Positions 4,333 to 58,685 of a stretch of DNA of 64,000 bases are shown in pieces; within the stretch, counting starts at the first letter, position 1; every line of letters begins with the position of its first letter. The notes beneath the pieces were generated by a model. It was not told where the DNA came from, ran no database searches, and saw nothing but the letters and a program-made list of their open reading frames with translations. Made by a program: the position numbers and the translations under genes. The stretch spans positions 124,001 through 188,000 of the forward strand of contig JBBHKE010000047.1 in assembly GCA_037447655.1 (NCBI GenBank), written 5' to 3'. The stretch comes from Zygnema cylindricum. Its lineage: Eukaryota; Streptophyta; Zygnematophyceae; Zygnematales; Zygnemataceae.

Positions 4333-4411
4333 AAGCGCGGTAACGTAGAGGGGTTAGGATCCGACTGAAAGCCGTGCCTTCCTTTCCCAATAGGCATTGT
4401 GGTTGCATTTT

Positions 4412-4600
4412 CTTTAGATCTGACCGTGATTGGTCTTGGATAACGACTTCTTGTCTATTACATTTGGCCTTGTTGGGCCTAGATAATTTTTTGTTTTATT
4501 ACATCAAGCCTTGTGGGCTTTGGATAGTTTCCTGTATTACTACATCTGGCCTTGTGGGCCTTGAATAATTTCATGTTTTATTAAATCTGGCCACAAGTTG
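4412..4600 (+). repeat. Tandem repeat, about four units of roughly 48 bp
   Basis: Units share the core ATCTGGCCTTGTGGGCCTTG followed by a T-rich GATAATTT...TTTTATTAC tail, with considerable divergence between units. The array lies in the presumed LTR/leader upstream of M1 gag. Repeated blocks in U3 regions can act as enhancers, but no function is shown here. Confidence 0.6.
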
Positions 4601-4935
4601 CCTTGCATAGGTGACACGTTTCTTCTTCGAGTGGCTTGAAGTGACTTATTTTGGTATTGCTTAGATCTGGTTGTGAACAACCTTGTTAGGGGTGTTCACG
4701 ATTAGACTAACCCGGGTGAAACAAAATAGATCAAATCGTTTACGGGGGTGCCTGTTTGCATGGGTGCCTGTTTGTGTGAATTTGAAGACTTCCTGTGAGA
4801 TTTGATTATTAGATCTAGCAGTGAGCATTTGCACACTGACCCTGAGTAGGGTGTGGCATCTAGTTGCATCCGGATATGACGACTGTCTGTTTACATGCGA
4901 ACAGACTGGAACAAAAGAAGCTTCAGTCTTTACCG

Positions 4936-4960
4936 TGGACTGGACCGGGATTTGATTCCC
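4936..4960 (+). promoter_or_regulatory. Possible primer-binding site of M1
   Basis: The sequence starts TGGACTGGACCGGG and continues into a T-arm-like palindrome (CGGGATTTGATTCCCG), as a stretch complementary to a tRNA 3' end would. It sits about 500 bp before the first gag-like coding sequence, which fits a primer site just inside a 5' LTR. The spacing to a normal acceptor stem is off by about two bases, so this is tentative. Confidence 0.35.
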
Positions 4961-5439
4961 GCCCGCTCACCTCGTGTCTATTTTCTAAGTCATACTGGTC
5001 ATATCGCTCAGTCTCACTGCTCAGTCTCAGCTTATGGGTTCACCCGACTCTAGATCTGGTATAACCACCACATATAGATCTACATCATCCATCTCTTCGT
5101 CCTCTTCCCATAGCAGGGGGGAAGATTCGACATAGACTCCTTTGATATCCGAGATTGAAATCTACCGCCTTCGCTTTTTTCTTTGGCGGAAATATACACA
5201 CTAAATTTGATTCCTTTTTTGTGGGTATGGCTTCGTCCATAGACACCGGAGGAGGTAGAAATCAGTTTTGTTTTTTGGGTCTCAAAGAACTATGTCATTG
5301 TCACATTTTTGGTTGCTTTTTGATACCGAGATGCGCGATCTCGCATTCTGGTATTAAGACTGTTATGATTTACGGGTTGCTTTTTCGTTACTTGGGCGAT
5401 ACCTTAGAGGATCTGCCCTATCTCTATATACAAGGAAAT

Positions 5440-6770
5440 ATGCGGCAATTTGTGCTATGACAGAAATGGCACCCACATATTATGGATCTTTAGCCATAAC
5501 AGGCAATCAAGAAACTCTTTTCCAAGCCGCGGTACTTGGAGTTTATGACTCTGCAGGTAACGAAATTTCACTTGAAATACTTGAGGTCCCTCATCAGTTC
5601 GCCGTCGCAGCTCGGGCAGCAATTCCAGCTCGCCCTGCAATCTGGTTCCTCTAAGGGACCCGGTATCATTTGTCTTCAGTTTATTACAGGAAAAGTATCG
5701 AGTACTGGTATCATTTGTCTGCAGGTTATTACAGGAAGAGTACCGAATGTAGAATCCCGATCAGGTTAAAGAACTAATGAATTTCGAACGTCGCCCAGGC
5801 GAAACCGCTTTGGCCTTGCGAGCACGTATGGAAACATTACGTGAAGCACTGCCAGATCTCATGTGAGACGCAGAGGCAGTTCAAAAATCTGTGGGGCAAT
5901 TTCCCACCCAATCTCGACGTTTCATCAAAGCCATTTGACTGAGGCAATGGCCTCAAATTTACTTTCGAGCAGGCTTCAGAATGTGCTGTACGGTATGAAA
6001 TGCAAACCAGCTGGTGGGACGTTCACGAGCCACCTAATTCTTCTTCTAATGCAAAATCGAATCCTAATCCTAATCCACGCAACCAATGGCCCAATCCGAG
6101 ACCTTGAAGGGCTTTAGCTATGGGAACATTACCAACGACCCATGTTCGTATATGCTTCCGATGTGGTAACAGTGGTCATGACGCACGCGGCTGTCCGGAT
6201 AAGACTGCCACGTGTACTCATTATAATCAAACGGGTCATTATGTACATCGATGCCACATTAAAAATCCCGATTTCAGTTATCAAAATCAAATCAAAAACG
6301 GCGGTATACCTGCTCGCTCGACAAAATTGGTCACTCCACCCAAAGGGGTAGAGAAAGACAACCCTCAGAAAATCAGCAGGAGGGACCGAGAGAAAGCCGA
6401 GATGCAGGCTACCGTCGCAGCCATGATGAAGGAGCAATTTGCCGCGCTTATGGCGCAAGTCAAACCGCAATTAACTGGAATGGCTCGAACTGTGGTCCAT
6501 ATGCCCTCTTTTGCTGGGCGATCTCTTCAGAAGTCCACCGTTCAGCAGCGGGCAGCTCAGTTTAAAAGGACTCCCGATCATAATCGCGAGTCAAATTCCA
6601 TAAACACACGAATCCCATTATCATTTGCCAAAGAACCTCGCTCACCTATTCCAGAAACGGCCTCAAGCATCACCGCTGAGGCATTAACTATTTTAGAGAG
6701 GAGTATACAAGACACATATAAGGTCAAAGAACGTTTATCCATCCTCTCCACCAAGCTTTCCCGAGTTGGA
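5440..6770 (+). pseudogene. M1 gag (capsid and zinc-knuckle nucleocapsid)
   Basis: Gag of the M1 gypsy element. Capsid-like sequence is legible around 5765-5930 (NFERRPGETALALRARM), interrupted by an in-frame TGA near 5863. The region 6120-6770 is an open segment of 217 residues. It begins with a perfect CCHC zinc knuckle (CFRCGNSGHDARGC, residues 12-25). A second knuckle at residues 32-45 has its second cysteine replaced by tyrosine. A basic, glutamine-rich, probably coiled tail follows (EKAEMQATVAAMMKEQFAAL). The knuckles would package element RNA in virus-like particles. The gag lies directly before the protease region, one frame away. At least two frame changes and one stop make it non-functional. 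Confidence 0.7.
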
Positions 6771-8276
6771 TAGCAACGAAAAACCTATAGATCTAACTCC
6801 TTCAGCAGTTGCGTTACAAGCATTACAAAACCATCGTAATACTCTCACTCTTCAAGCTATTACTCTTGAAGAGCGGTCTAACCTCACTCCTCACATCAGT
6901 TTTCTAGATAACAAATTGGGCGTTTTTACGGTTAATGGATTTGCTCCGGGACTTCCTCTCATGGATAAAGGCGCAAAGCCAATTATCCTCGGTTCTGATT
7001 TTGCCCTCAAAATAGGTCTTACAGCAGATAAGTGTAGAAACTAATGGTTTTAAAGTATTTTCTAGGTCTGAAAAGAAATAAAGAAGCCGAGGCAGTCTAC
7101 CTCTTACTTCTCTCTCCAACTCTCAAACTTGTCGCAGTCACTGATAAATTGGAGAGGATGCTAGAGCCATGGCTACCTAGGCTATCCTGAGGTTTACGGG
7201 AAATTTATATTAGTTAGGGTTTATTTATTTAAAAACTATGTGCCGGCGGCAAGAATTGATCCTTGTACTTACCTGCCGGCAGACAGGAAATAGCCGGTAG
7301 CCTTAGCCGTTAAGCCTAGCGGTAGTGTTACGTAGCATATAGTTTAATATTTATTTAAATGATTATACGTGCGATAAATCATTTAATTGAAATGGATTAC
7401 GGGATACATAGATCCAGTAATATATAATGTACGAATTACGGTACAGACAAAATCAATACTGCGCATTTGTTTCGTAATTGAAACAAATACCGCGCATGTA
7501 TTTATTACGGCTACGATTAAATCCGAAATTAATCGGACGGCCGGGATTAGCTCCGAGATTGCGGAGGAAGATTTCGGCGGTTTGTGGCCATCGCCATATC
7601 GGATGACGCGTGGCGAAATTACGTTGGATTGTGGAATCTCCGGAGATTATGGCACCGAATCCGGATATGACATGTGTCGACATTTAGGGCATGTCATACA
7701 ATGTCCGTACCTAAAGTACACCGGCAGCTGTACTTTTGCGTACGGAACTCAATTTTGATTGGTTCCGTACATCAGTAGATAGTGTCTGTGAGAGAGATAG
7801 GACTTAGAAAAATTAGAAGATAGGACCCCCTCTCCCAAAGAGCTTCTGTACAAAAGGTCAACTTTGACCCTCCATAACTTACTGCTCAGGGGAGCAAATT
7901 AAAAGATTATTTTTGCTACTGACTCAAGGGAGTCTTGCCTTCACAGGGGTGCAGGTGGTCAGGGTTTTTGTCTGCCAGGGTGGCAGTTATGTTTGCTGAA
8001 ACACAAATGGGTCAAGATTATCCTAGTGGCTTCTTAGAAACTGTCTACTCTGAGGACTTATGGAGGTCTCACAGTTTCAATAAGTTAGAACACACTACCA
8101 CACGTCTATTGACTTCCGCAGGTACCACAGAGCCAGTCCTCGGTATTATGATAGAACCAATCTGTTTTCAATTTCAGAGTCAGTCAGCGACGGATTTCGC
8201 AGAAATTTATGCCCACGCCTTGGTCACCAAGTGTAGTGACTATGAATGCTTGGTCGGTCAAGACGTAATTTTTTGA
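6766..8276 (+). pseudogene. M1 aspartic protease-like domain, split by a solo LTR
   Basis: The coding sequence 6766-7032 continues in the same sense after 8085, and the two halves align across the solo LTR once one ATAAG duplication is discounted. The expected retropepsin turn is present as LMDKGAKPIILGS, where retrotransposon proteases normally show D-T/S-G. The middle residue is lysine, so the active site looks inactivated. Downstream, LVGQDVIF resembles the ILVGQ-type strand that closes this protease family. The open frame ends at 8276 shortly after that strand, and further element coding is visible to about 8500. The domain would have matured the polyprotein. The family assignment rests on motif order rather than a search. 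Confidence 0.6.
7033..8079 (+). mobile_element. Solo LTR-X inserted in M1 protease
   Basis: A complete 1,047-bp LTR starting TGTAGAAACTAATGG and ending CTCACAGTTTCA. It is flanked by perfect 5-bp target duplications ATAAG (7028-7032 and 8080-8084). No internal copia sequence remains, so this is the product of LTR-LTR recombination after insertion. A GGTCAACTTTGACC palindrome lies at 7856-7869, as in the other copies, and the conserved ATG 17 bases before the LTR end is present. Confidence 0.93.
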
Positions 8277-8609
8277 GTTGGGGGGGGGGTTGATATGCAT
8301 GATCAGACATTTTCGTACAGACCGAACAACTTTCCGGAACGTAAAATTTGCTTACCCCTTATCTCGGCCCGACAACCCATGCCTACTACGGCCCATTCGG
8401 CGCTGATCGTGCCAGCCTATGTCGCAGTTTGCATAGGTGCAGACATTTTTGAATCTCTAACAGCGGATGAAATCTCACCAGATCCCGCAGGTTTAACATA
8501 ATTATTTAGTACTCAGGGATTTACCATTGACTCTTCAGATTTTGACCGACTAAACAAATTTACTATTCCAATTCTTTTATCCACTATTCCAGATCCACCC
8601 TCCATTACG

Positions 8610-9625
8610 ATGGATCCTTGCGGGTTCGTGCCCATTAAATGGAAACCGGTCAATTTACAACCTCACCCGAATTGTCTAGTTGTTTTAGACCTTTTCGCAG
8701 GAATCGGTACTTCACTTCTCTCTTGCTTGCGGAACGGGCTTCTTATTAAACACTATTATTCGGTAGATATTGATCTCTTGGCTAGGCGCTCTCAGCTGCA
8801 TTACTGTCAAATCCTGCATGAACAATATCCACACCTTTTACCCCTGTCCCCTTTTCATGACATGCATTCGGCTCTACCACAAGATATCCGCTTAATAGGA
8901 AATCACCACTTATTGGAACTAGAACCAATGGATCTCATTTTTGCGGGATGGGAATGTCAAGGTATGTCTAGAGCCGCGAAAGGTTTGGGGTCTTGCGGAT
9001 CCACATACTAAGTTTTTTTTCAAGGTGGTGCGTCTTATCCACTTCTTCCAAAAACCGGGCCATCCTTTTGGATACGTATTATAAAGCCTCGTAGCTTATA
9101 ATGACCCTCGACCCACGGTCCTTGCAGATTACAACGCATTGAATCAATAATTGGACCACCATTGATCATTCATGCCGCACGCCACAGTTTGCTGGCCCAC
9201 CGGGTTTGTTCCTAATGGACTAACCTGGTAGACATAGGCCGGCTCAAAGAAGCTAACCTCGCTGTACCACCACCTAACCTGTCTATTCAAGATGCACTTC
9301 TTCCATTTCATAAGGTCTAGACATGTATCCAGACATACTATCCCCTTGCTTTTTGTCTTAACATCCCCAGCCAGTCACTACGTGCACTCCCCACACTAGT
9401 CGCATATCCGCACTCTCACGCATATTCCCATAACGGACCGGGCATGCTGTAGAATACACATAAAGGTAGCTTATAAGAACCTACTGCTGCAGAACGGGAA
9501 CACCACTTACATTTAATTTCAGGCACCACTGCTGCTCCGAGACTCACCGAGTGGCAACGTTGCACCTTACTTGGTCGTGTCATGGACCCTCAATCATTGT
9601 GATTTGTCTTAGGCATGGGGTTTGG
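8610..9625 (+). pseudogene. M1 retrotransposon C5-cytosine DNA methyltransferase domain
   Basis: The domain would transfer a methyl group from S-adenosylmethionine to cytosine C5 in DNA. Motif I is clear as LDLFAGIGTS (about 8685-8714), followed by a motif II-like YSVDID. Motif IV is GWECQGMS at 8946-8969: the catalytic cysteine is kept, but the usual proline before it (PCQ) is glutamate. After the stop at about 9009 other frames still give a GYVL block, an AHRVC...WTNLV block resembling motif VIII (QxRxR-like), then LPTLVAYPHSHAYS and GTTAAPRLTEWQR...LLGRVMD near 9580, resembling the last motifs. M2 carries the same blocks in better condition. Several stops show the copy is dead. It sits between protease and RT, so it was part of the element polyprotein and not a host gene. 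Confidence 0.8.
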
Positions 9626-9799
9626 AACCGGTCGATACGCACAGAACTATATGTCTCAACCAGTTCGGGGGGGGGCATACACCATTTAAACACACAGCTT
9701 CCAAATCCTCACCTTTTCTTCGGGGTGCAACTTTTCAACTCGCTCTTTTTCCTTTTCCCTCTAAGTCTGACACAAATCACAATATTTATGATTTTTTTG

Positions 9800-10619
9800 G
9801 AACCTAGTCATATGAGTTGGTCCCTCCCAGCATACACGACTGCTAGATCTAAGATACCAGTACGGGCATCACCACACTCGACAGCTGCATTTCCAACTAG
9901 AAGTTGGTATCATGCAGTAAACTGTTTGCATAAACTCCCTGTTGAGTATGAGTTGGGACACTCGTTAACAGCGGATGAGGAGCTAGCATTTGAACGTGCC
10001 ATGGAAGCCATGACCATCACCACGCTCGAAAAACGGACAAGGAAATTCAGAACGAGACTAACAAAGTTGGAACACGACTTTTTAGATGAAGTCATAAACC
10101 GACATATAGACGCATTCGCATTCTCCATGAAAGACTTAGGTCGACACACCACTTAGAGAATGTCCATTGACCTTGAAGATGACAGTCCTATATTAAAGTC
10201 CAAGTATCGCCTATCAGAAACTGAATGGGAATCCGTAGACAAACGATACACAAAATTAGAAGAGGTAGGCTTGATTTATAGGTCTGATTCCACCTTTGCG
10301 ACGCCCACTGTTATGCCTTGTAAAAAAGACATGGAAGGGAATTTTACAGAACATCGCATGTGTGGGGACTATCGAGAACTCCATTCGCGTACAATCCAGG
10401 ACCGACATCCAATGCCGTTGGCTGAGGATATTTTTGATCATGTTGGAGGAGCTGAATATTTCAGCATCCTGGATCTGCAACAAGGATTTAATCAAATCGA
10501 AATAGAGGAAAAAGATCGACACAAGTCTGTATTTTGGGGTAGTGACTGACGTTGGGAATGGGCAGTTATGCCCTTTAGACAGAAAAATGCACCGGCAGTA
10601 TTCCAAAAAGTCATAGACT
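9800..10619 (+). pseudogene. M1 linker and reverse transcriptase, truncated
   Basis: Coding sequence up to 10156 ends with a pre-RT linker (VINRHIDAFAFSMKDLG). The Ty3-type RT follows: the VGLIYRSDSTFATPTVMPCKK strand block, MCGDYRELHSRT, HPMPLAEDIFDHVGGAEYFS, then ILDLQQGFNQI (first catalytic aspartate, in LDLQQGF). After an in-frame TGA at about 10547, WEWAVMPFRQKNAP corresponds to the usual MPFGLTNAP block. The catalytic YxDD box would come next but is absent, because the LTR of the copia element starts at 10620. The domain would copy element RNA into cDNA. Confidence 0.8.
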
Positions 10620-11580
10620 TGTTGAAATTAAAAAACTTTCTTATGTATTTTCTAGGTTTCTTAAAGTAATATAAAATGAGGAAGAAAAAGCAGAGGCAAC
10701 CTGCTTCTAACTTCTCTCTCTAGCTCCATACTTGTCGTAGTCACTAGAGGCTGAAGAAGAAGCTAGAGTCAGAAGGCAGTTCTTTGTTAAACTTACCAAA
10801 AAGGTTAACAGACCCAAGATCTGACCGTCTGTCTGAATAGACCAGCGTCGTTACCATGTAGCCTAGAAATTGTTTCAAGGTATATAGGGTACGATAGCTA
10901 ATTAAAGATGTACAAATAGCAAAGTTCATTTAACTAACGAACGGACTATAAATCACATAGATATAGTTAGATATAATCACGTCTAAATGTACTGCTTGTA
11001 TTTTAACGGCTATAAATTGAGACCAATATAAATCGGACGGCAAAGGAAGAAGCCGGCATCGCGGAATGCCGATTTGGCGGTTTGCGGTCTCAGCCACACC
11101 GGGTGACACGTGGCAACATGACATAGGATGGCGGCATCTCCAGAACATACCATGGCGAACCCGGAAATGGCAAGCGTCATCTTCTTGGCCATGTCGTACA
11201 ATGGCCGTACAGAAAGTACTTCGGGCTAAGTACCTTTCTCTATTGTACAGTAAATTGATTGGCTCTGTACTTCAGTAGAAGAGGGATAAGAGAACGGTTC
11301 AGGACTTAGAAAATGTTAAGGTAGCAGCCTTTCTCCTAGAGCGCTTTTGTATAAAAGGTCATCTTTGACCATTGATAAATTATTGCTCAAAGGAGCAAAT
11401 TCAACGATTCTTTTTATGGCAGACTCAAAGGAGTCAGTTCTTTCGAGGGGTGCAGTTTGGTCTATCTGTATTCTGTCAAGGTGTCATCAATTTTCAGACT
11501 AAGATCGAAGAACTGAGGTTATCCTAGAGGCTTCTAGCAAGCTGCCTACTCTGAGTACCAATGGAGGTCTCAGAGTTGCA
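10620..11580 (+). repeat. 5' LTR of the chimeric copia
   Basis: A 961-bp LTR beginning TGTTGAAATT and ending GGTCTCAGAGTTGCA. It contains a TATA-like TATAAAAGG at 11350 and the GGTCA...TTTGACC palindrome. It differs from the right-hand LTR by eye at roughly a quarter or more of positions, including large indels. Confidence 0.88.
11350..11370 (+). promoter_or_regulatory. TATA box and W-box-like palindrome in LTR-X
   Basis: TATAAAAGG runs straight into GGTCATCTTTGACC (11357-11370), an inverted pair of TTGACC/TTGACT-like motifs, the core recognised by plant WRKY factors. The palindrome recurs at 7856-7869 and 15507-15520 and, inverted, near 63353. It is therefore a constrained or recently shared part of the LTR promoter. 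Function is inferred. Confidence 0.55.
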
Positions 11581-12559
11581 GGTTATGGGCCCACCCTCTA
11601 GGGTGCCCATATTCAATGGGATTGGGTTCATCTACTTGGAGAGTATGATGATGGGAGCCCTATGTGAGAAAAGATTTTGGGGAATAGTGAGTGGGCGAGT
11701 GAAGCGCCCATCCGGTCCTGCTATTCCCCAAGGGTTTGGAGGAAGCAGATTTGGTAGGAAACCAAATCCACCGTCATCAGAGGACTCAAAAGACGCAGAA
11801 AGCATCTTGATGGAAAAGGGGAAAGAAAAAGAGAAAACCACACCTATAGCAACCGGATCTGCTTTCTTGTCTCTTATTCTAAGGAATGAGGAGAATGACA
11901 TCGATACCTGGGACTACAACAACATGGCGACCAAGCATTTTGTTCTCCGTCATCTCACATAAGGACTCGTAGGACCTCGTTTGCAGGTGGAAAGGGCATC
12001 CGATCTATGGGATGTGCTTATAGAGATGTACCGAAACGGTACTATTCAAGAACAGAAGCTAGCACATCAAAGGATCAATGGATGCTTTCACAAAGGAGAG
12101 AAGATGCTCGATTACTGCAGTGAGCTGGCTATACTCTTCATGGATCTAGAGTGTGCCGGAAAAGTAGAAACCGAGAAGGCAAAGGTAAACTGCTTACTCA
12201 TGAAACTACCCGATGAGTATGAGAACATTGTGAAATGGGTACAGGATCTGCCAGACTCCAGGTGGATATGGAATTCGGTAGTTGATATGATTCTTGTCCG
12301 AGAGAATACAATCGAAATCCAGAGGGGAGTTAAAAATGGACAGGCCTTGGCGGCCAGAGCAAGTTGGAGAAACAAAGATTCACGGAAACCCCTTGGAAGT
12401 CATGAAGGGGAAAACTTGGAAAATCAATTTGATGAGTTCGGAACAAGGGGACCAAAGGGGCTTTGTCATTTTTGCAAGAAATCCGGGCATTACATGGCGG
12501 AATGCACCAAACTAACCGAGCTTCGGATAAAGGAGGGAAAGACCGGGGGTCAGCCGTGA
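11561..12559 (+). pseudogene. Copia gag of the chimeric element
   Basis: The gag ATG at 11561 lies inside the LTR, and the frame reads across the primer site (QVMGP). The capsid region corresponds to the UBN2/gag-of-copia fold: ASDLWDVLIEMY, IQEQKLAHQRINGC and LLMKLPDEYENIVKWV are readable in 11981-12559. It ends with a canonical CCHC knuckle, CHFCKKSGHYMAEC (about 12463-12504). A stop at about 11960 separates the first 133 residues. The N-terminal part 11640-11960 is unusually rich in proline, glycine and lysine compared with ordinary copia gag and may be rearranged. The product would have assembled the particle. Confidence 0.72.
11581..11594 (+). promoter_or_regulatory. Half-tRNA initiator-Met primer-binding site
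   Basis: GGTTATGGGCCCAC directly follows the LTR end. It is complementary to the anticodon stem-loop segment of eukaryotic initiator tRNA-Met (GTGGGCCCATAACC), not to its 3' end. Priming by a tRNA half cleaved in the anticodon loop is the Drosophila copia mode. An identical 14-mer follows the LTR of the unrelated copia at 51460. Confidence 0.8.
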
Positions 12560-12699
12560 GGGAAGAAAAAGGCACTTGTCACACAAGTACTCGAGGAGGA
12601 ATCCGATGAGGAGGACGACGAACTTCTTTTGGATGAGGAGTTAGAGGCAAAGACAGAAGTCGCAATTCCACGGAAGCACAAATGTGCTTTCGGTGGACT

Positions 12700-14655
12700 A
12701 AAAGGTGAAGGAGGCTAGATTGTAGATTCAGATGCCTACATGCATATGTGCAAGGATAAGCATCTGTTCACTAAGATGAGAAAGATTCATACAGTAGAGA
12801 TTGAATATGGGGATGGGAGGGTAGTTACCACTACTTATGTAGGATCGGTAGATATGAAAGTTGTAGTGGAGGGAAAAACCTAAATAGTTACGTTCTCCGA
12901 TGTATTGTTTATTCCGGAGTTAAATAAAAACCTTATCTCTACATCTGTATTAGATGATAAAGGATTTGAAACTAGAACCAAAAAAAGAGTTTTTACAGCT
13001 AGCTTTGAGGAAGATGTGTACTTCACTGATGAGAAAGGTAGCCAAGGAATGTTCAGACTTACTTTAAGTAATAAAAAACTCAAACTTTACTATGATGGTG
13101 TCAATGATATTATGTTGTGGCATAAGAGACTTGGGCATGTGAATCTAGAAAAACTAAAAGGAATGAAAAAGATGGGAGTAGTTTAAAAGATACACTTTGG
13201 GGAAAATGACAATGTAAGTGATTGCAGTGGGTGTGCTCAAGGTAAAACACACAAGCTACCATTTCCAAAGGAAGCAACTTATAAAGGAGAAAAAGTCCTT
13301 GATTTGGTACACACAGACATTTGGGGACCGGCAATAGTGCAATCACCCGGAGGAAAAAGATTTATGCTAACCATTACCGATGATAAGTCTCGGTACTCCA
13401 GGGTATACTTTCTGAAAAACAAATCAGAAACTGTGGAGTATTTCAAACAATATAAAGCATGGGCCGAGAAGCTTCACGAGACCTCAATAAAAAGAGTAAG
13501 AAGTGACAATGGAGGGAAATATACCTCCAATTAGTTTGAGGAGTTTTTAAGAGAGACAGTTCCGGAAAACCCGGAATAGAATGGTGTTGCCGAAAGATTG
13601 AATAGGATACTGAATGATAGTGCCCGGAGTATGTTATCAGATAAAAGGATAAGAAAAAGATTTTGGGCCGAAGCTATGAATTGTACTAATTATTTGAGAA
13701 ATAGAGTACTTACTTCGGCGGTGAAAGACCAAACTCCATATGAGAGATGGACCGGCCGAAAACCAAATCTATCCCACTAAAAGGTTTTCGGTAGAAAAGA
13801 TTTCAGTTTATATACAAATAGATCTAACTGGAAACTAGATCCTAAAGGGAAACCCGGATACTTGTTAGGATATGATGAGGATGTAAAAAGGTATAGAGTG
13901 TATGATCTAAAAAGAGAAGATATAATTTTAGTCAAGTACTTGGTAGCTATGGATGAAGGGAAGTCAGTAGATCCCTTCAACTCCTCAAAGACAGTCAGAA
14001 TCAGATTTGAGTTAGATATTTCTGATGACTTTCACCTTCCTAACTATCCGAGTCTCCTGGAAGAAGATATCTTTGCAGGCTCACAACAGATCGAGAAAGA
14101 CTTGGAAACACCGGTGACACCTATACCTAAAGCGGAAGACGTGGTGGAAACGAATATGGATCCGAGAGACAGGGGAGAAGTTGTGGTGATTCGAAAGAAT
14201 CCACAAGAACCATCTATTCCGGCCACTGTTTTTGAGGGAGGATGAAGAGGTAGCAAAAGGCTTCAAGAGAAATAAGTTAACAACAAGGTAACTAAACTTT
14301 CTCTCCCGGATGAACCTCAAACATATGGAGAGGCAATGAACTGCCCGGAGAGAACCCGATGGAAGATGGCCATCAATGAAGAGTTGGCTTCAATCAATGC
14401 GGCTGATACATGGGAGTTGGTGGACAATCCACCTGATCGCAAACCAATTGGATGTAAGTGGGTTTTCAAATTGAAACTGAATCCTGACAATACTATTGAG
14501 CGGTATAAGGCCCGGTTAGTGGCCAAAGGTTTTACTCAGAAAGAGGGAATAGACTACGAAGATACCTTTGCTCTGATCGTCAGACTCCCCTCGGTCTGGA
14601 TACTTCTCAGTCTGGCAGCTGTAGAAGACATGGAAGTACACCAGATGGACATCAA
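12700..14655 (+). pseudogene. Copia pol of the chimeric element: protease, integrase, RT start
   Basis: Order of domains: protease active site as IVDSDAYMHMCKDKHLF (normally DSGA; glycine is aspartate here, and the preceding tryptophan codon is TAG); GAG-pre-integrase LWHKRLGHVNLEKL and CSGCAQGKTHKLPF; integrase with DLVHTDIWGP (first D), VRSDNGGKYTSN (second D) and NGVAERLNRIL (E). Next comes WAEAMNCTNYLRNR...KTPYE-like sequence, then RT start WELVDNPPDRKPIGCKWVFK and YKARLVAKGFTQKEGIDY. The frame stops at EVHQMDIN, exactly where the LTR begins at 14656. At least eight in-frame stops occur. Copia order (integrase before RT) is certain. Confidence 0.82.
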
Positions 14656-15730
14656 TGTAGAAATTGATGGTCCTTTTTTAAGTATTTTCTAGGTCTAAAC
14701 AAAAAAACAGAAAGAAGGCGAAGCAGTCTATCTCTAACTTCTCTCTCCAACTCCCACAGTTGTCGCGGTGACTGAGAAGTTGGAGAGGAAGCTAGAGCCA
14801 TGGCTACCTAGGCTATCCAGAGGTTTACGGGAAATAGATTAGCTAATTTATTGAATGGTAGTTTATTTACTAAAAAGATTAGTGATGCAACCAAGATTTG
14901 ATCTTGGTACCTGCCGATCGTCAGAACGCCAACGTCGGTAGCCGGTAGCCTTAACCGTTAAGTCTAGAAGTTAAGATACATGCTATAGGGTTTGATATTT
15001 ATTTAAACATTACCATATAGGATATTTCATTTAACGAAAACTGCTTACAGAATACAAAGAGTCAGTTATGCAGAAGCACGGATTACGGTACAGATAAGAA
15101 ACAAGTTCCGCGCATTTGTTTCTTTAAACAAAACAAATACCGCGCAAGTATTTATGACGACTCTGATTTAAATCTGCAATCAATCAGACGACCGGGAAGA
15201 AAGCCGAGATTGTGGTAGAGAATCTCGGCGGTTTGTGGTCATCGCCACATCGGATGACACGTGGCAAAATTGCGTTGGATCGCGGCCTTTTTGGGAATTA
15301 CGGGACCGAATCCGGATATGACATGTGTCGACTTTTAGGCCATGTCGTACAATATCCGTACAGAAAGTACACCGACAACTGTACTTTTGTGTACGGAAGT
15401 GTAATATGATTGGCTCTGTACATCAGTAGATAGAGTATGGGAGAGAGATAGGACTTAGAAATATTGGTAGATAGGACCCTCTCTCACAAGGAGCTTCTAT
15501 ACAAAAGGTCAACTTTGACCCTCCATAACTTACTGCTCAGGGGAGCAAATTCAGAGATTCTTTTTGCTACCGACTCAGGGGAGTCTTGCCTTTATAGGGG
15601 TGGAGGTGGTCAGGGTTTTTGTCTGCCAGGATGGCAGTTATTTTTGCTGGAACACAAAGGGGTCAGGATTATCCTAGAGGCCTCTTGGAAGCTGTCTACT
15701 CTGAGGACTTATGGAGGTCTCAGAGTTTCA
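14656..15730 (+). repeat. Right-hand LTR-X of the chimeric copia
   Basis: 1,075 bp from TGTAGAAATTGATGG to CTCAGAGTTTCA. It is closer to the solo LTR at 7033-8079 than to the left LTR of this element. Its left edge abuts truncated RT; its right edge abuts M2 integrase at 15731. The TGTA.AAA start resembles the RT codons it replaces, so a microhomology junction is possible. Confidence 0.88.
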
Positions 15731-16260
15731 CAAGGCACCCGTGTGTCCCACTCCCCCAAATCCTCTCCCACTGCATATTTCCGTAGTGACCGCTTCACTC
15801 TATGTTCGCACCTCTCGGCCAATCCGTCGGCTTGGGGGTGGTCTCAGCTGGTCAACCTGTGGTCAATGAGGCACTTCTCCAGAAGGTTAGAAAATTCTTC
15901 GGCAAACTCGGACCCTTGATCTGTCAGAACTTCGGCCGGTGCTCCAAATTGAGACAACACTCTCTGCACGAATGCGTCTGCGATCGCTTTGGATTCCATT
16001 TGTGAAAGAACCACAAATTCAATCCATTTAGAGAAGTGTTCAATCATGACCAGAAAAAAAAGGTTCCCCCTCCAGCTTGTGGGAAGTGGTCCCAGCAGAT
16101 CCAGTGACCATCTGTAAAACATTCCCTGAATGGGGAGGGAGTGAAGTTCAGTCCCACCCTTTTTGTCAAAAGCAGCTTTCACCCAGTCACAAGAAGGGCA
16201 CGTCTGCACCACACGATTGAATTGGGCCCGCAACCCATGCCACCAATACGACCCTTTGAC
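15731..16260 (-). pseudogene. M2 integrase, C-terminally truncated
   Basis: Integrase would insert element cDNA. Readable are the zinc-binding cysteines (QTCPSCDWVKA), the first catalytic aspartate (YRWSLDLLGPLPTSW), the second (VLTDQGSEFAEEF), and the region of the third residue (HPQADGLAE). A stop follows RLTS at about 15844. The sequence ends at KYAVGEDLGEWD, matching M3 at 57928-57960, after which the copia LTR begins. The C-terminal domain and any PHD finger, which M3 retains, are lost. Confidence 0.83.
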
Positions 16261-16278
16261 CAGCGAGTTAGTTCGTTT

Positions 16279-18300
16279 CTATTCGAAGTGCACGCTTTGC
16301 TGGTGAAGCCGAACAATGAGCGTTTCCCGTTCTGTCGGAGGAGGAACCACTTTCCTCGTCCCATCGGCCCATTTCCAGAGAAGAATGCCTCGGTCCCATT
16401 CATAGGCCGCCATTCGGTTCTGAACACGGGACAATTGACTTTCGGCAAGGTGGGGTAGAGGAGAGCCTTTCTGGATAGACTGGAGGGAATCGGTGTCATT
16501 CCATATATCCTTCCGGCCGCCTCCGGTGGGGGCCGTCCCTTCTACATCTGCAGCAAAAGTTGATAGTTTTCCTTCAGCCCGAGGAAGCCAAATAAAAGCA
16601 GAAGATGCCCAGATAAGTTCCATGCTGAGCTCAGGGTCCTCATCATGCCGCGCCCCAGTAGAGTCTCTGGTGGACAAGTCCGGATTCCTGCTGAGTCCGT
16701 CGGCATTCCCATGAATCTCCCCGGCTCTATAGATAATGCTGAAATCATATTCTTGCAAGATGAGAAACCATCTGGCTAACTTTCTAGTCATCTTAGGGTT
16801 CTCCATGATCCATTTAAGGGGCTGGTGATCCGTAATAAGGGTGAAGTGTACTCCATAGAGGTAAGGCCTGAAGTGCTTGATGGCCCACACCGCGGCAAGT
16901 AATTCCCCATGGTAACTGTTGTAATTCCCCTCGGCTCAGTTATTACTCCGGCTTGCGTAGGCCAGTACATACTCAGCCCCGGCATCGTCTAATTGAGCCA
17001 AAACTGCTCTCAATCCGAACCTGCTCCAATCTGTGTAAAGGAGAAAAGGCCGCTGGTGATCGGTTATCCGAGCACCGGATGCTGTTTGAGGGAATCCTTC
17101 AGGAATTGGAACGCTATATGCTGTTCTTCTTTCCACTGCCACTCCTGGTCATTTCGGAATAATTGATTCAATGGCTTAGCGTGGCTACTGAATTCAGGAA
17201 TAAACCGCCGGTAATAGTTGGCAAGGCACAGGAAAGTACGAAGAGCTGAAATGTCTTGCGGAAGTGGGATAGCGTCTAGGGTTGCCACCTTCACCATGTG
17301 GGGACCCACTGTACCGGGAGTCACCTCATGACCTAAATAAACGATTTTCTGCACCCCAAAGATGCCCTTCCCGGGGTGACACTTCAAGCCTGCTGCTTGG
17401 AGCGCCCGGAGAACAATCTGTATATGCTCCAAGTGTTCCTCGAATGTCTTGGAGAAGATGATTACATTGTCTATGTAGCATCGGGCGAAGTCAATTCCCC
17501 GGAGAGCCTGGTCCATGGCCCGTTGGAATTTGGCAGGTGCATTTTTGAGGCCAAAGGGCATGTATACAGCCTAGATCCTACCCAAAATGCGGTTCTCTCC
17601 CTGTGCTTCGGCTCCATTGCAATCAGGTGAAATCCATTCTTCATGTCGAACGTGGAGTAGATGGTAGCCCCAGCAAGAGAGTCGAAGATCTCTTCCGGGG
17701 TAGGCATATGATAACGGTCGGAGACACTTGCCACGTTGAGCATCCGGTAGTCCCCACACATCTTTAAATCTACCGTTTTTCTGGCGGAGTCTTTCTTTGG
17801 CGGGAGTACAGTTGGTGAAGCAAACCCATATAGCCGTGTACTCTCCTGAAACAGCCCTGCGTCCACCAACGTCTACAGCTTTGAAGTGATGAACTCCTTC
17901 TCCTTGAAACTGAGAGGGTACTGTTTCTGCCAAACAGTTGCCGTCTCATCGATCAGGTCAACACGAAAAGGGGTCCCCTTATAGATCCCTACATCTATGT
18001 CAGACCAGGCGAATACCTGCCAGTTCTCTTCTAACAACTTAGAGAGCCAGGCCTTTTGCTCTTGGTCTAGCTGTTCACTTAGAGTCCAGTCCATCTTTCG
18101 GGTTCCACTGCCGCCTATGCTTCCCGTGGCCTACCCGAGAGGGAGATGTCGAAGTTCCGCTCTACCTGTGGATCTGTCCCTTGTTCGGCTGTTAAAACGC
18201 TGCTGCTGACAACTTCCCCTAAGTTGTCCTGTTCTGAGCTTCTGTCCCCCCCCACTGAGGAAACTCCTGAGTCCAGTGTGCTATCGCTCCCCCCCACTGA
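16279..18300 (-). pseudogene. M2 reverse transcriptase and RNase H
   Basis: Pre-RT linker (EENWQVFAWSDIDVG), then Ty3-type RT: FASPTVLPPKK, MCGDYRMLNVAS, RYHMPTPEEIFDSLAGATIY, STFDMKNGFHLI (first catalytic D), MPFGLKNAPAKFQRAMD and CYIDNVIIFSK (17490-17460). The catalytic box should be YxDD, but the second aspartate is asparagine, a single G-to-A change that would abolish polymerisation. Next come FLCLANYYRRFIPEFS and the RNase H part: LLYTDWSRFGLRAVLAQ, then LAAVWAIKHFRPYLYGVHF and TDHQPLKWI with its aspartates, ending GNADGLSRNP. Stops lie at about 16938 and frame changes around 17100 and 17560. Confidence 0.88.
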
Positions 18301-18399
18301 GGAAATTCATGTGTTTGGTATGCTATCTAAATGAAATTTGGTAAATGTGAATTTTTCCCTCCTTGTCTTTCTCCCCCCCTCGAGCTTTAAAGTTGCGTG

Positions 18400-19445
18400 C
18401 ATGGCCAACAACTGTGAGGCTTGAAGGTATGTTGTCGGTGATGGTGGAGACGGAAAGCTTGAGAATGCAAGAGAATGTTTCAGCACCCTGGAAATTGCGT
18501 TTAAATCCATACTTTGTCCGATTAAACTGCACCTTCTTGAGGCCGAGACCCCTGGCGCAGCTGTGGTTCCCTGTTGAAATCCCATTGCTTGTTCCCTTTC
18601 TCCAATATTTGGCGCTGTCCATGTGGCGGTTGTACTGTCAAAGATCATTCCTGGTGCGCCCTTCGGGTAACCGTGGCTATTAGGAAAAGATACCAGGGTT
18701 GGTAGGGCCTTCCTTGGATATCTAGGTTTATTGCAACAGAAAAAGGGTGCTCTGTCGGCTTTGGTCACAAGAGTGGCCATGCGTTCTGGTCCGAGAATCT
18801 GTTGAACTGTGATGTTGGGATCGGAACCTGGGTTTTTAACAGCTTTTGGAGGATGTGAAAAGGAACCAAGTTGGTCCAATAAGCCCGAACTCGGTGGGCT
18901 CTTGATCCGACCTGAGCTGCATCAAAAACTATTGGAGTCCCCAGAACCTTGGTTACTTGGTTCTAGCTGTTGACCACCTGTTTTCTTTTATCATCTGTTG
19001 GGTGAACATTTTCCAAGACGTACCCCACTGGCGTGTCCTGGCGTTCTTGTATCTTTGTTATTAGTCGCGTCATGTGGAAGAATGTTTTGCGGTGGACATC
19101 TTGGTGTCCCCTGCCCTATCCTGCTAACGAATACCCCTGGCACGGCCATCCAACGATTACCATGTCCACCCTTCCAAGCTTTTCCAAATGTGAATTGGTG
19201 ATATTGTCCACATTTTGGGGAAGCGTATGGTGAGAGTTAGACATGGCGGACATCGGTAGTTGCTGTGGGTAAAGTTGATGTAACTGTTGCAGTCGGTACT
19301 CACTGACTGCACGGGCGTCCGGATCAACCTCGACTGCTCAGTACGCTTCTACTTGGTATTCAACCTTTAGGACGGCCCCCAGATCGGAGCTAATGCCAGA
19401 AAATAGGGATAAAATCCTGAGTCTTGATGGCGGGACCTCCAGCGA
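18400..19445 (-). pseudogene. M2 retrotransposon C5-cytosine DNA methyltransferase domain
   Basis: Nearly complete C5-methyltransferase. Motif I is ILSLFSGISSDL (about 19407-19378), the SAM-binding loop; motif II-like AVEVDPDARAVSEY follows. Motif IV, GWPCQGYS (about 19155-19130), holds the catalytic cysteine. Motif VI is GYVLENV, around 19020; motif VIII is AHRVRAYWTN, around 18885; then LPTLVSFPNSHGYP and EREQAMGFQQGTTAAP, ending IGQSMDLN like motif X. All catalytic residues are readable. Defects are a TGA after motif I, a TAG after motif IV and a one-base slip in a T-run after motif VIII. The reaction would be cytosine-5 methylation, possibly of the element's own cDNA, as proposed for such elements. 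No separate target-recognition domain beyond the short VIII-IX interval is apparent. Confidence 0.87.
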
Positions 19446-19479
19446 CACCACCTGTCGATTGAAGTCTTTCCCTTTGTTA

Positions 19480-20361
19480 GGAGCCGTTGGAAGTTCTGAC
19501 CCGGGAACATTTGCTGTTCATGATAATATTGCAGCAAAGCTCCTGTCCACTTCCCGCCGAAGTGTGGCCATCTGTCTTAATCGATTTCGGTACTCCCTTT
19601 CCCACCGCTTGGAAATAGAGAATTGCTAGATGGAATTGGCAATATCGATGGAGTTGTTGAACAACTCCAAAGGGGTTGAGGTAGAGTATACGGGATAGCA
19701 ACTAGACACCAGAACAGCTGTTTTTACTCGGTTCCATAACTCCAAGGGGACCACCACTTTGGTACCCTCCGGATCCTCCGGGTGTGAGAGTGTGATTTGT
19801 TCCTTCCATATGCTCCGATGTTCAATCTTGTCCACGTGGCCATTCCTAGCAAAATTTCGAATTTTTTACCTTCCACCACTAGAAAAGGGTGCTAATTTGA
19901 ACGTGCTGGCCTGCGTCATCCGCAGATTAGATTTCCATGGCATTTATGATACCATATACTGGTTGGCTCCCACTGCTGACCCTACTCAGGCATATGTCGT
20001 TGGGGCTGATTTATGGCCGGAGTTCCTCGGGCATTTGTTGTAATGCTGAGGTGGTGATAAGATTAAGGAGAGCTCCGGTATCCACCAGTGCATCCTGGTA
20101 CCCGCCGTATCCATTAAGTTTAAAATTACCCGTTCTGTTTAGAATAAGAGCCACTGACAGGGCCTTATAATCTCTATCCGCCATATAAGTTTTTGGTTTC
20201 GTCGACATGAAGACTGTCTTGGGTGGTTGTGCCAACGCGACCCTTTCCCTCCTGGTGTGAATCTCTTCCCCCAGTGCATGAATGAGGGTTTCTTCGGGCA
20301 GATTATGGGAGGATGCTAGAGTCTTGACGTGCGTCAAGGCGTAGGGTATCAAGTGCCGCAC
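19480..20361 (-). pseudogene. M2 aspartic protease region
   Basis: The open frame 20361-20011 contains DALVDTGALLNLITTSALQQ, the retropepsin-type D-T-G active site with its typical following hydrophobic stretch, so the catalytic aspartate is intact here, unlike in M1. It is preceded by a conserved HLIPYALTHVKTLASS block shared with M3. Downstream segments (HPEDPEGTKVVVPLELWNRV) continue to the methyltransferase with at least one frame change and a stop. The protease would process the Gag-Pol precursor. Confidence 0.65.
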
Positions 20362-20435
20362 TAGTATGACTCCCAGTTTGGAGGAAGGAGGTTGAGCTTT
20401 GTGCGATGAAATTGGTGAGTCCTCGTCCTCCGATT

Positions 20436-21095
20436 TCTCCTATCTCCTCCCCCCTTCTTCCTCACTTTCTGCGTCAGAATTTGCTGTTGGAGGTGTCACT
20501 GGCAGATCCGTGGATGGTCTTTCGGCCAAATATCTTTCGAACCATTCCTGATCTGTTTCGGGAGTTGAAAAATCTTTTTCAGGCTGGGGATTCTTAAAAT
20601 TTTCGAAACCAGGAGGAAGTTTCTTTGGAGCTGGGGGAGGCGGATGAGTCGGCTTGAGTCCCAGTCCAATGTTAGTGTTCAGAAGGACTGCTCGCGGTGT
20701 GAAGGATAAGGGACGGTGGCTTTGCGGTTGTGGTCCTTTTGTTCCATCGGTTGTTTGTCCTTCCTGTGAGAGGACGTTGTAGAGCGCAGTTGCCTTCGAC
20801 TTTCCCCTACACCAACGTTCCAGGCTCCGGACAAAAATGTCCGAGCATGATGAGCCTTTGGAGGCTCCATATCCCACCCCATTAGGTCATCATCATCTCC
20901 ACCCACCGTGGTCTGCTGTTCTAGCTCCGCTAGCTTTTGTAGCAGTTCTTGTTTTTGCATCTGCAATTTCTGAGCCGGCGTAAGAGGTTGAGGAGTGCGG
21001 GCAGGGGATCTCAGTCGGAGAGCAGCGAGTTCTGTTGCCAAAGCGGCCAACTGGGTGCTCTGTTGCTGAATGATATGTTCTGGTGTCAGTTTGCT
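20436..21095 (-). pseudogene. M2 gag
   Basis: Residues read LTPEHIIQQQSTQLAALATE, LTPAQKLQMQKQELLQKLAE (a glutamine-rich predicted coiled coil), DDLMGWDMEPP, SGAWNVGVGESRRQLRS, then, after a frame change near 20690, KPTHPPPPAPKKLPPGFENF and EWFERYLAERPS. Every one of these blocks recurs in M3 at 56986-57654, which identifies it as element gag rather than a host protein. The first 16 or so residues of the open frame upstream of 21095 belong to the adjacent DNA element, so the gag start is lost. Its role would be particle assembly. Confidence 0.72.
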
Positions 21096-21769
21096 GGGTC
21101 GAATGAAAAATGACCCACGCACGCGCTACAAGAGTGGGAAAATTTTAGGACGAGGGAGAGTCTTCTCTATTTTTCTCTGTACCCGTCACGCGCATGTACG
21201 GAAAAAAAAATTCAGGGGTCTCGGACCTCCACTTTCATTCATGGGGTCCTTTGCAAAATTTTGCGCCGTCGTCGCCTCTCCCCTCTCCCTCTCACACTAT
21301 CGCTTTTATCTCACACTATTTGGAATGAGACACGACAATATTGGTATAAAATGAAAGATATTTTAAAAATAATATTTTTGAAAATTTTTAGATTTATTTT
21401 TAATGGCAAATCGAATGAAAAAAGTAGAAAAAACGAAATCGAGAAACCATGGCGGAAAGTTATTGAATCAGTGACGTCGACGTTGTCACAAGTGAGCATG
21501 ACGTCACAATGTCACCAAACCCGAAACATCTACAATTTCACAAAAATCTAGGCGTCTACCACTGTCGCTGTTTTCGTTGGCGTCACTAATCGTCGGAAGT
21601 TTCGTAGTCGGCTTCAATCGTCACAAGTTGTACCTACTTCTACAACCGTCACATTTCAAAGTTCCGATTTCATTTTCGCACATAGGGACGCTCATTAAAG
21701 TAGTACGGAGTATCATCACTACAATCCAAAATACTTTATCAAAGTACCGATTACATGGGGACGTACCCT
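21096..21769. mobile_element. Inverted-repeat DNA element A (ACGTCCCCATGT family), left end lost
   Basis: The right terminus is ACATGGGGACGTACCCT at 21753-21769. The whole segment is the inverted counterpart of 29109-29780, including the CGATTTCGTTTTTTCTAC-type block and CGTCGACGTCAC. It is joined to M2 gag at about 21095, which removed its left end. No transposase is visible. Confidence 0.7.
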
Positions 21770-22306: not shown

Positions 22307-22327
22307 GTACTGTACTTGTCGGTACAG

Positions 22328-22867: not shown

Positions 22868-22880
22868 GCGATTCAGGGAG

Positions 22881-33308: not shown

Positions 33309-36300
33309 TTGATTAGAAACGAGTCATTGGTGGAAGGAAAACCGTTGAAAGTAATGGTTGATTCAGGTGCCACACATAATTTTATTTCACATAAGTTTGT
33401 AGAGGAAAATAAAATTCCTACTGTCATAACGGAAAGGCCTTTACATGTTCAAGTGGGAAATGGTAATAAGTCCACATTAGATTTACAAACTGACACAATA
33501 GAAGTTGATATCCAGGGTCATAAAATGAAATTCGTGTGTGAAATAATGATTTTGGGAAGTGAAGAACTAATTCTAGGAAAGCCTTGGTTAACCGAATACA
33601 ATCCTCAAATTAATTGGGAAATTAACACCTTAAAAGTGAAGTCTGAAAACGGTTGGAAGGTTTTGCAAGCATTATCTCCTAAGAAATTGCATAGGAATCA
33701 TATAAATAACATAACCAGATTGGGAGTGGAAGGTATGATATCTGCTAAACAATTTAAAAAGCACTTAAAAGATAAAACAAATCATGCTTTCTTGTTATTA
33801 GTAACTGAGGCAGTTACTGATGAAAGGGGGGGAAAAAACACTAACATTGATGTCATCCCTAAATCAGACACCACTAAAACTTTTGCAAAACTAAAATATG
33901 ATTTTGTAACTGACATTAATACATCTGATGTTGTTGTTAAAGATTTGATTTTTGAATTTCAAGATGTTTTTCCTAGTGATTTACCCTCAGGAAGGCCACC
34001 TTCCCGAGATGTGGAACACGTTATTAACCTTGAACTTGGTTGCAACCCTCCTGTCACAGGAATTTATAAGCACAGTTTCTTTGAGCAAGAGGATTTAAAG
34101 AAACAGATCAAAGAACTCTTAGAGAAAGGACATATTCAGCCCAGCAAATCACCGTATGGATCACCAGTTCTCTTCGTCAAAAAGAAGGACGGAACGTTGA
34201 GAATGTGTGTCGATTATCGTAGTCTAAACAAGATTACGGTGAAGGATAAGTATCCGTCACCTTTAATTTCTGATTTGATAGATCGTTTAAAAGGTGCTAA
34301 AGTATTTTCGTTGATTGATCTGCGTAGTGGCTTTAATCAGGTGCCAATTAGAACTGAGGATGTCGATAAAACTGCTTTTAGGACTAGGGTGGGTCATTTT
34401 GAATGGATAGTGATGCCATTCGGCTTAACGAATGCACCGCCTACTTACCAAAGATTAATGAACCAAACCTTTTCAGATTACATAGATGAGTTTGTCGAAG
34501 TGTTTATAGATGATATTTTAGTTTACAGTGAATCTAGAGAACAACATGTAATTCATTTAAGAAAAGTGTTAGAAAGGTTAAAAGAAAGAAAATTATACGG
34601 AAAATTGTCAAAATCCAGCTTTCTTAAAAGTGAACAATTATTTTTGGGACATATAGTTAGTGGGGAAGGTGTTAAAACAGATCCATCCAAAATCACTGCA
34701 ATCCAAAATTGGAAGCAACCTACTAATGTCACGGAAGGTAGATCATTTTTGGGATTGGCCACTTACTACAGGAAATTTATAAAGAACTTCAGTATGATCG
34801 CTGCACCTTTGACGGATTTACTTCGGGAAAAAGAGACGTTTGTGTGGGGAGCTGATGAAGAGAGAGCATTCAAGGAACTAAAAGGGAAGTTGACCTCTGC
34901 TCCTAGACTGGTGTATCCTGACCCTGTTGGAGAATTTGAAGTTATGATCACTACAGATGCTTCTGACAAAGGTCTAGGTGCAGTCATAAGTCAAAAAGTC
35001 GGCAAACACTTTCATCCTATTGCTTTTGAGTCCAGAAAATTCAATGATGCTGAAAAGAACTATACAGCACAGGAAAAAGAATTACTTGCGATTGTACATG
35101 CATTGGTGAAATGGCGATGTTATTTGCATAATAAAGAATTTACAGTTCACTGTGATAATAAAGCACTTTCTTATTTACAGAGATTAAGTGATGCACAGAA
35201 TATGACTGGCAGACATGTTAGGTGGATGCAAAAATTAGCATATTTCAAATTTAGTGTCAAACATATTCCTGGGAAGACAAATGTAGTTGCAGATCCTTTA
35301 AGTAGATGTTTTGAAATAAGTGTTATGGTTCAGGATGAATTGTTTTTAGATACTGTTAGAAATGGTTATGATAAAGATCCTTATTTTGCTGTGATTTGCA
35401 AGAATATTTCGGGAGGGAATTCTGACCCATTGAATGAGAGGCATGTCAAAAACTTTAGACTAGAGGATGGTTTACTGTATTTGCAAATTGGGGATAGATT
35501 ATGCATTCCTGAAGTGGGAGACTTAAGAAAACAAATTTTACGGGAAGCTCATGAGCATTTAGGACATCTAGGTCGAGATAAAACTCTAAGTCGGTTGCAA
35601 AGTAGATTGTTTTGGCTTGGGATGGCAAGGGAGGTGTCAAAACACGTGGAAATTTGTGTTCCTTGCCAACAGAGTAAACCTAGTACCCAAAAACCTAAAG
35701 GTCTCTTAAAACCTTTGGATATCCCTAAAAGACCGTGGGAATCTGTCAGTATGGATTTTATTGTCAGGTTGCCTGCTACATCTAAAAGGAATGACAGTAT
35801 CATGGTCGTAGTGGATAGGTTCAGTAAATGGCAATCTTTATCCCTTGCAAAACCACTCATTCAGTTGTAGATATTGCAAAGCTATATTTTGACAACGTGG
35901 TCAGACATCATGGAATCCCTCTACCTATAGTCAGTGATAGAGATTCTAAATTTACGTCTGTTTTTTGGAAAGAATTACAACAAAATTTAGGCTCTGAATT
36001 GAAAATGAGTACCGCTTGTCATCCTCAGACAGATGGACAGACAGAAAGGATGAATCGTACACTAGAGGAAATGCTTAGGACTGTTTGCAGTGCAGTTCAG
36101 AACAATTGGGAATCTAAACTGCCATTAATGGAATTTGCAAACAATTCATGTAAACATGCTAGTACAGGATTCTCACCATTTGAAGTTGCATACGGATGCC
36201 AACCGAGAGAAGCATTAGAATTAATAACAGGGATCACACAAGAGAATAGGGGTTCAGGAACGGAATTTTGGGAATATATTCAAACAGTTTGGAGAACTGT

Positions 36301-58345: not shown

Positions 58346-58512
58346 AAAGTGGTGTAAGTCTGAAACAAGGGAGTTCTGACTTTGGAGGGGAAATATGGTC
58401 GAAGAATTAAAGAGAATCAGATCAATGTGGCTCCTTGTCATCTCCGAGGATTGGATGACGAACCCACTTTCCACTTGACTTACTTTGCCGATCTCCCTTT
58501 CATTCTTCATCC

Positions 58513-58659: not shown

Positions 58660-58685
58660 CTATTACTTTTTCTTAGTCAAGGCTG

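Follow-up and report, generated by a model that had tools for sequence, protein, structure and literature searches.

In this study we analyse a stretch of 64,000 nucleotides from the streptophyte alga Zygnema cylindricum (contig JBBHKE010000047.1, positions 124,001 to 188,000; this whole stretch is called the window below). It contains the remains of two Ty3/Gypsy retrotransposons, M1 and M2, in which a cytosine DNA methyltransferase (DNMT) domain precedes the reverse transcriptase (RT), together with a third, shortened relative, M3 (Table 1). An initial annotation, made from the letters alone, had placed C5-methyltransferase motif I and the motif IV cysteine between protease and RT in M1 on the plus strand and M2 on the minus strand, and reading the motifs in order bore this out. 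In M1, motif I reads DLFAGIG and motif IV, from 8946, GWECQG, with Glu replacing Pro; in M2 they read LSLFSGIS and GWPCQG (19134-19151). Both elements are real, but their extents needed correction. M1 consists of two blocks split by a repeat and ends within RT. By blastn, block 1 is 87-88% identical to the genomic copies L031 and L021 of family A, and block 2 is 86% identical to L021 4142-6693; by tblastn, block 1 matches residues 169-742 of the protein P0001. M2 belongs to family B (88.0% identity to L040, 86.6% to L024) and is truncated at both ends, in integrase and in gag. The interval 10620-15730 is part of neither element.

Both copies are decayed, with 10 stops in the protease-to-DNMT piece of M1 and one to four per piece in M2. 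It is because of this decay that single stop-free pieces reach only 16.8 bits (M1, best piece) and 20.4 bits (M2) against the PF00145 cut-off of 22. The M2 stretch reaches 44.4 bits (E 2.3e-9) once two stops are read through. The preserved family A copy L021, to which M1 is 79% identical across 532 residues (824 bits), likewise scores 44.4 bits (E 2e-11). The profile match is hence significant for M2 and for a preserved copy of M1's family, with M1's own pieces below the cut-off. The protease, which had been called retroviral-type, is the least secure part of the elements; a DTG motif is present in the preserved copies and PF13650 scores 16.7 bits in family A and 22.3 and 22.7 bits in family B, all below the cut-off of 24.3, but the window gave no Pfam protease match. 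PF13650 is listed for relatives such as P0007 and P0103. M3 had been described as a deletion derivative of the M2 lineage. The deletion, from the protease end to the integrase start, stands, but the descent does not: blastn identity to family B is 65% (56422-57888) and 75% (57892-58702), compared with 85-88% between M2 and B copies. Judged by these identities, M3 is a separate, diverged subfamily on the B side and not a derivative of M2 itself.

Table 1. Features of the window, those of the methyltransferase-bearing elements first.
Feature	Position	Strand	Remarks
M1 block 1	4333..7033	+	family A, decayed; gag, with CCHC knuckles near 6150, through the N-terminal piece of the protease-like region
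Repeat of ~1.03 kb	7034..8063		strand not assigned; splits M1 protease-like region; blastn against window
M1 block 2	8064..10619	+	family A; remainder of protease-like region, then DNMT and beginning of RT; internal stops
M1 cytosine methyltransferase domain	8670..9642	+	approximate limits; tblastn to P0001, motifs read
M2	15731..21098	-	family B; gag end, protease-like, UAG, DNMT, RT, RNase H, mid integrase
M2 integrase, zinc-binding part and core start	15733..16360	-	PF00665 E 6.7e-13, PF17921 E 1.2e-5
M2 RT and RNase H	16690..17960	-	PF00078 E 9.7e-15, PF17917 E 7.5e-21 (open pieces)
M2 cytosine methyltransferase domain	18450..19440	-	approximate limits; PF00145, tblastn to P0002
M2 in-frame UAG, candidate readthrough stop	19626..19628	-	separates DNMT-Pol from the protease-like part; next codons CAA UUC
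M3	56422..58702	+	gag to protease-like start, fused to integrase end and PHD region; without DNMT and RT
DNMT-less Gypsy with its repeats	30050-37157		terminal repeats 30050-30349 / 36858-37157, 98% identical, probable long terminal repeats
Pol of the DNMT-less, unrelated Gypsy	33309..36616	+	protease, RT, RNase H and integrase in one frame (33309-35867), SH3_Tf2-1 tail in next frame; Pfam
Copia-type gag (PF14223)	11981-12556		between M1 and M2
Inverted repeat, four pieces	21137-21769 / 29110-29734		~600 bp in total, 80-93% complementary, 7.3 kb apart
Two tandem-like copies	22326-23398		~550-bp unit, 86-91% identical in pieces
Open reading frame with Hsp70 match	23723-24637		E 6e-8; possible host gene or fragment
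Direct repeat	50317-50616 / 53047-53346		96% identical, 2.7 kb apart; short element or pair of long terminal repeats

A PF00145 search of the 352.8-Mb assembly gave at least 123 scored matches from 782 candidates. Among these, 34 distinct places were read, namely the 20 best-scoring and 20 picked for long frames or spread, with six overlapping. All but one carry a domain of family A (15) or B (18, counting B-side subfamilies down to ~50% amino acid identity). The remaining place, L007, belongs to neither family; we take it to be a chromomethylase-like exon, which suggests that the host keeps plant-type methylation genes. In L021 a single frame of 2395 residues runs through CCHC knuckles, a protease-like part, DNMT, RT, RNase H, integrase and a PHD finger (E 1.5e-9), and in L024 and L025 frames of 1520 and 1525 residues begin just upstream of the DNMT. 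Of 20 loci of ten kb each, counting the two from which the queries came, 19 have protease, DNMT and RT in this order on one strand; the exception, L039, has RT, integrase and PHD on the strand opposite its DNMT. Since the domain lies in the same place in these 19 loci it is no late insertion, a possibility that the initial annotation had raised. A PHD region follows downstream on the same strand in 16 of the 20, and behind the protease-like part the loci, P0001 and P0002 have RT, RNase H and integrase in the Ty3/Gypsy order. Long terminal repeats (LTRs) of 931 bp, in direct orientation, 100% identical and starting with TG, bound L021; no target-site duplication is evident at this one copy examined. 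End repeats were present within the 10 kb in seven of 16 loci checked, all of family A. Among these, besides L021, are L029, whose repeats match at 100% over no fewer than 361 bp, L027, with 99.8% over 465 bp or more, and L028, L036 and L037, with 94-96%. The near-identical LTRs imply that some family A insertions are very recent.

The two families appear to differ in how the enzyme is expressed. Family A has an unbroken frame from gag through DNMT to Pol, as L021 demonstrates. In family B a UAG occupies the identical codon in all 16 distinct copies with an intact boundary, M2 included; three further places (L010, L017, L033) are disrupted there. CAA UUC follows in 15 of the 16, and UAA UUC in L034. 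The UAG is common to L003, L011 and L018, although their DNMT domains share only 54-58% amino acid identity and the adjacent codons vary. The leaky context of the tobamovirus type is UAG-CAA-UUA, to which the family B context is close but not exact, and murine leukaemia virus has a UAG between Gag and Pol. Folding of three family B copies found no stable RNA structure 3' of the UAG beyond chance in any of them (z -0.17 to -0.89). From codon conservation and context we infer programmed UAG readthrough in family B, with the DNMT as the probable first product of Pol.

Motifs I, IV (Cys), VI (EN) and VIII (Arg) of C5-methyltransferases were all found. The residue before the catalytic Cys is Glu in family A and Pro in family B, and 52 of 81 domains have EC rather than PC, the odd cases being PY in P0013 and DC in P0053 (P0044 was left out of this tally). 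Family A is termed Dnmt3-like because Glu replaces this Pro. The EC forms keep the Cys (52/52), the Glu-Asn of motif VI (52/52) and the Arg of motif VIII (50/50 readable rows), the PC forms are similar in this respect, and a domain-terminal Asp is present in 77 of 79 EC or PC rows. On the DNMT tree Pro and Glu switched about seven times, a number that may shrink because many branches are weak (32 of 76 drawn open). A structure predicted for family A from 51 alignment rows is closest to DNMT3, which leads M.SssI and M.HhaI by 3-4 Z units; against BFVD it matches C5 enzymes encoded by phages and large viruses, with lower TM. A kinship with Masc1/RID, which the EC motif might suggest, was rejected: according to PMC6709928, motif IV of Masc1/RID reads PCQ and motif VI either EQT or EET. 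It is conceivable, if unlikely, that the EC form is a distinct enzyme rather than a degenerate one, in which Glu tunes the site toward an unusual substrate, such as the RNA-DNA hybrid or single-stranded cDNA of reverse transcription, so that element DNA would be marked before integration.

Searches with the domain returned 41 proteins for the B query, which scored only the 7992 candidates sharing most words, and 45 for the A query; named relatives come from Marchantia polymorpha, Closterium sp. NIES-53/54, Klebsormidium nitens and Haematococcus lacustris. Of 3123 matches to the family B RT, the best 120 were considered. Among 166 proteins with a usable RT the DNMT lies before RT in 34 (three from the Zygnema genome) and after RNase H in 47; two have Dam instead, 53 start so close to RT that no decision is possible, and in 30 no DNMT is seen. 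Where scanned (P0173, P0195), the 'after' domain lies upstream of integrase. The RT tree had 59 rows, of which 58 were hand-picked from the 166 and one was the DNMT-less window Gypsy, which served as in-window comparison and falls outside the DNMT clade. All 41 carriers and four rows without a detected DNMT form one clade (support 100/99). Two of the four, P0163 and P0184, extend far enough for the domain to be called missing; P0165 and P0187 are too short. Dam-bearing P0190 and P0192 come next outside (95/75). RT and DNMT distances of 53 elements agree (Mantel r 0.63, best of 2000 permutations 0.25; 29 of 50 splits shared). The DNMT tree has 26 unclassed rows, 25 from elements without usable RT and one human DNMT3A piece. 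P0003, P0041 and P0043 were left out of this tree and of the distance test, and P0043 also of the 59-row RT tree; it is discordant, with its DNMT before RT yet a place, on a long branch, among the 'after' elements of the first RT tree.

These trees would be most simply explained by a single ancient capture, after which the domain changed its place in Pol once and was lost a few times. Given one capture, carriers in both Chlorophyta (Haematococcus) and streptophytes would mean either that the capture is very old or that the elements passed from alga to alga. Two or more independent captures, one leading to the order protease-DNMT-RT (window, Klebsormidium, Closterium, Marchantia) and another to RNase H-DNMT-integrase (Haematococcus and many others), are possible but rather improbable. 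Position does split the DNMT tree, in which all 40 'after' rows lie within one 54-row branch (SH-aLRT 99) and all 13 'before' rows outside it, and on the RT tree the 'after' elements, with P0184, also form one clade (100/98) inside that of the carriers. However, the sampled carriers are themselves a single RT clade, and shared residues such as the domain-end Asp fit one capture followed by a move.

Rates of change were compared by Nei-Gojobori counts of nonsynonymous and synonymous substitution (dN/dS), with pairs of dS under 1 considered. The family A pair L021-L026 gave 0.09 for DNMT (dS 0.34) and 0.03 for RT, the family B pair L024-L025 0.14 and 0.09, and L003-L018 0.12 for DNMT. Other pairs gave DNMT values of 0.08-0.48, and 0.72 for L033-L003; higher values are expected because dead copies were included. 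Between subfamilies of A dS is mostly saturated, and L021 and L023 share ~78% of amino acids in DNMT compared with 92% in RT. These figures indicate an enzyme under constraint, though less than RT. In the comparison asked for in the initial annotation, DNMT ratios were below 1 wherever dS was measurable, and those of RT were lower still in L021-L026 and L024-L025. The annotation's proposal of an old acquisition maintained while the lineages diverged is supported by these ratios, by the agreement of RT and DNMT and by the single RT clade of the 41 sampled carriers.

That Gypsy elements here bear a DNMT is confirmed and well supported. For the lineage of M1 and M2 we found a constant gene order, the full C5 motif set, a predicted fold like that of Dnmt3, a DNMT history that agrees with that of RT, signs of purifying selection and recent family A copies. 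We consider it probable, with moderate confidence and the mechanism included, that M1 and M2 are dead copies from two families of one old green-plant Ty3/Gypsy lineage with a captured Dnmt3-type enzyme inside Gag-Pol and a PHD finger behind integrase. The enzyme would be made together with Pol, through the continuous frame in A and UAG readthrough in B. The protease would then free it, and it might be packed beside RT in the particle and methylate the new DNA of the element, or chromatin reached via integrase and the PHD finger. We infer a benefit of the enzyme to the element: most likely, new copies would resemble tolerated, already methylated host DNA, or would harm the host less, and thus meet weaker counter-selection.

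Several observations weigh against this reading. They include the upper dN/dS values and the faster evolution of DNMT than of RT mentioned above. Since P0163 and P0184 lack the domain, it is dispensable. The PHD finger of family B stays below the Pfam cut-off of 24 bits (17.5 in L024, E 0.004; 21.5 in L025, E 2e-4). The Klebsormidium Gypsy enzyme was inactive in yeast, a result its authors call inconclusive (PMC5890265). For the ratio of observed to expected CG, four copies of family A gave 0.89-0.94 and two of family B 0.66, while M1 has 0.78-0.84 and M2 0.64. The DNMT-less Gypsy of the window stands at 0.51, and two further stretches of the window at 1.08-1.11; hence no extra CG depletion of carriers was found relative to the one DNMT-less Gypsy compared. 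C-to-T change from L021 to M1 amounts to 0.15 at CG, 0.14 at CHG and 0.07 at CHH (reverse direction 0.09, 0.06 and 0.05), and is weaker between L024 and M2 (0.12, 0.09 and 0.07). This looks like CG and CHG methylation of dead copies by a plant-like host, which explains the decay equally well; the element's own enzyme is neither needed nor excluded. The footprint tells against a strong CG mark specific to carriers.

With the same anatomy, the enzyme might instead act on foreign or host targets, such as DNA viruses or competing elements, and protect the host cell, with tolerance as the element's gain. This was proposed for retrotransposon-borne methylases (PMC6338049), and the carriers' want of a specific CG depletion and the Dam-like adenine methylase of neighbouring Gypsy elements fit it, but the location inside Pol beside RT binds the enzyme to the particle and the element cDNA, and we think this explanation unlikely. 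Similarly doubtful is the idea that the domain, in the EC forms if not in all, is kept for its fold and has no catalytic role, perhaps binding DNA or protein as Dnmt3L does. The frequent EC and the faster evolution of DNMT speak for it; however, a domain free of catalysis should lose the Cys, Glu-Asn and Arg that the EC forms retain without exception. An ordinary degraded Gypsy with a chance or late DNMT insertion, which the broken state and sub-threshold pieces of M1 and M2 might suggest, has a negligible probability and is ruled out by the shared position in 19 of the 20 loci, which also holds in the named genomes and in long open frames.

The favoured reading, an old Gypsy lineage with a captured Dnmt3-type enzyme, places M1 and M2 in a known kind of element with variants that we have not met in print. 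KnitGypsy-Dnmt3, which according to PMC5890265 was captured independently within the lineage of K. nitens, is likewise a Ty3/Gypsy Pol with a Dnmt3-type domain. The K. nitens protein P0037, presumably of this kind, was recovered by the family B search and has its DNMT before RT as in Zygnema, but the domain is only 42% identical over 65% of the query; its motif IV reads PCQ and its motif VI 'EH'. KnitGypsy-Dnmt3 is described with DIRS-like repeats (PMC5890265), in contrast to the single plain LTR at each end of L021, the one copy compared. Further differences are the EC of family A, the conserved UAG of family B, and the PHD after integrase (a weak match in B), not seen in P0037, which is a partial sequence. 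SymbioDIRS-Dnmt3 and SymbioLINE-Dnmt of dinoflagellates are also retrotransposons encoding cytosine methyltransferases, but of other classes and from independent captures; SymbioDIRS enzymes methylate CG in yeast, and de novo CG methylation has been demonstrated for other element families (all PMC5890265). Compared with the catalytic domain of animal DNMT3A/3B (~20-25% identity), the element domain is longer in the stretch from motif I to motif IV, its Cys is followed by Gln in place of the Asn of DNMT3A, and Pfam reported no ADD or PWWP in the element proteins scanned.

PMC12344493 reports DNMT3 in retrotransposons of streptophytes and dinoflagellates, terming the LTR ones Copia, and PMC6338049 already mentions green algal and charophyte elements of the Gypsy and DIRS kinds that bear Dam or Dcm. 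The available part of PMC9998398 contains nothing on DNMT-bearing elements. By title and abstract start, no description of a wide clade with these features was found in the mostly non-subscription literature, where PHD fingers and the catalytic motif were queried and the UAG and second position were not. Five Marchantia polymorpha proteins (P0006, P0014, P0018, P0143, P0170) have DNMT domains of the element kind, P0143 and P0170 together with RT. The latter two bear on the statement in PMC6338049 that 'land plants, such as tracheophytes' have no transposons with methylases, Marchantia being a land plant and no tracheophyte. Our findings join the reported charophyte case to an old and widespread Gypsy lineage with two fixed enzyme positions and a recurrent change in the catalytic motif. 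The likely readthrough signal would set the enzyme dosage. PC and EC forms, positions before and after RT, and elements with and without the enzyme offer a natural series for asking why a retrotransposon carries a silencing enzyme of its host.

Some observations lie beside these subjects. The Gypsy Pol proteins P0190 and P0192, nearest to the carriers on the RT tree though joined by a branch of only 95/75, resemble them in bearing a PHD finger and in the methylase that separates protease from RT; they differ in that the methylase is of the adenine (Dam) type, PF05869, and the PHD lies before integrase. Copies of a dispersed repeat of ~1 kb adjoin or interrupt the ends of M1 and M2, and by blastn the repeat within M1 has relatives at 14657-15714, 3563-4331, 63173-63877 and 2-361. 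A search of the assembly for the RuBisCO large chain found none. One Lhcb-like gene matches a set of LHCII chains, among which the best single-domain rows are those of moss, spruce and pea, ahead of Chlamydomonas, and the 620-residue multi-domain chain 9vfj_2 scores higher still; a streptophyte host is likely. Elsewhere in the assembly, contigs C519 and C2590 hold dense clusters of Lhc (PF00504) matches.

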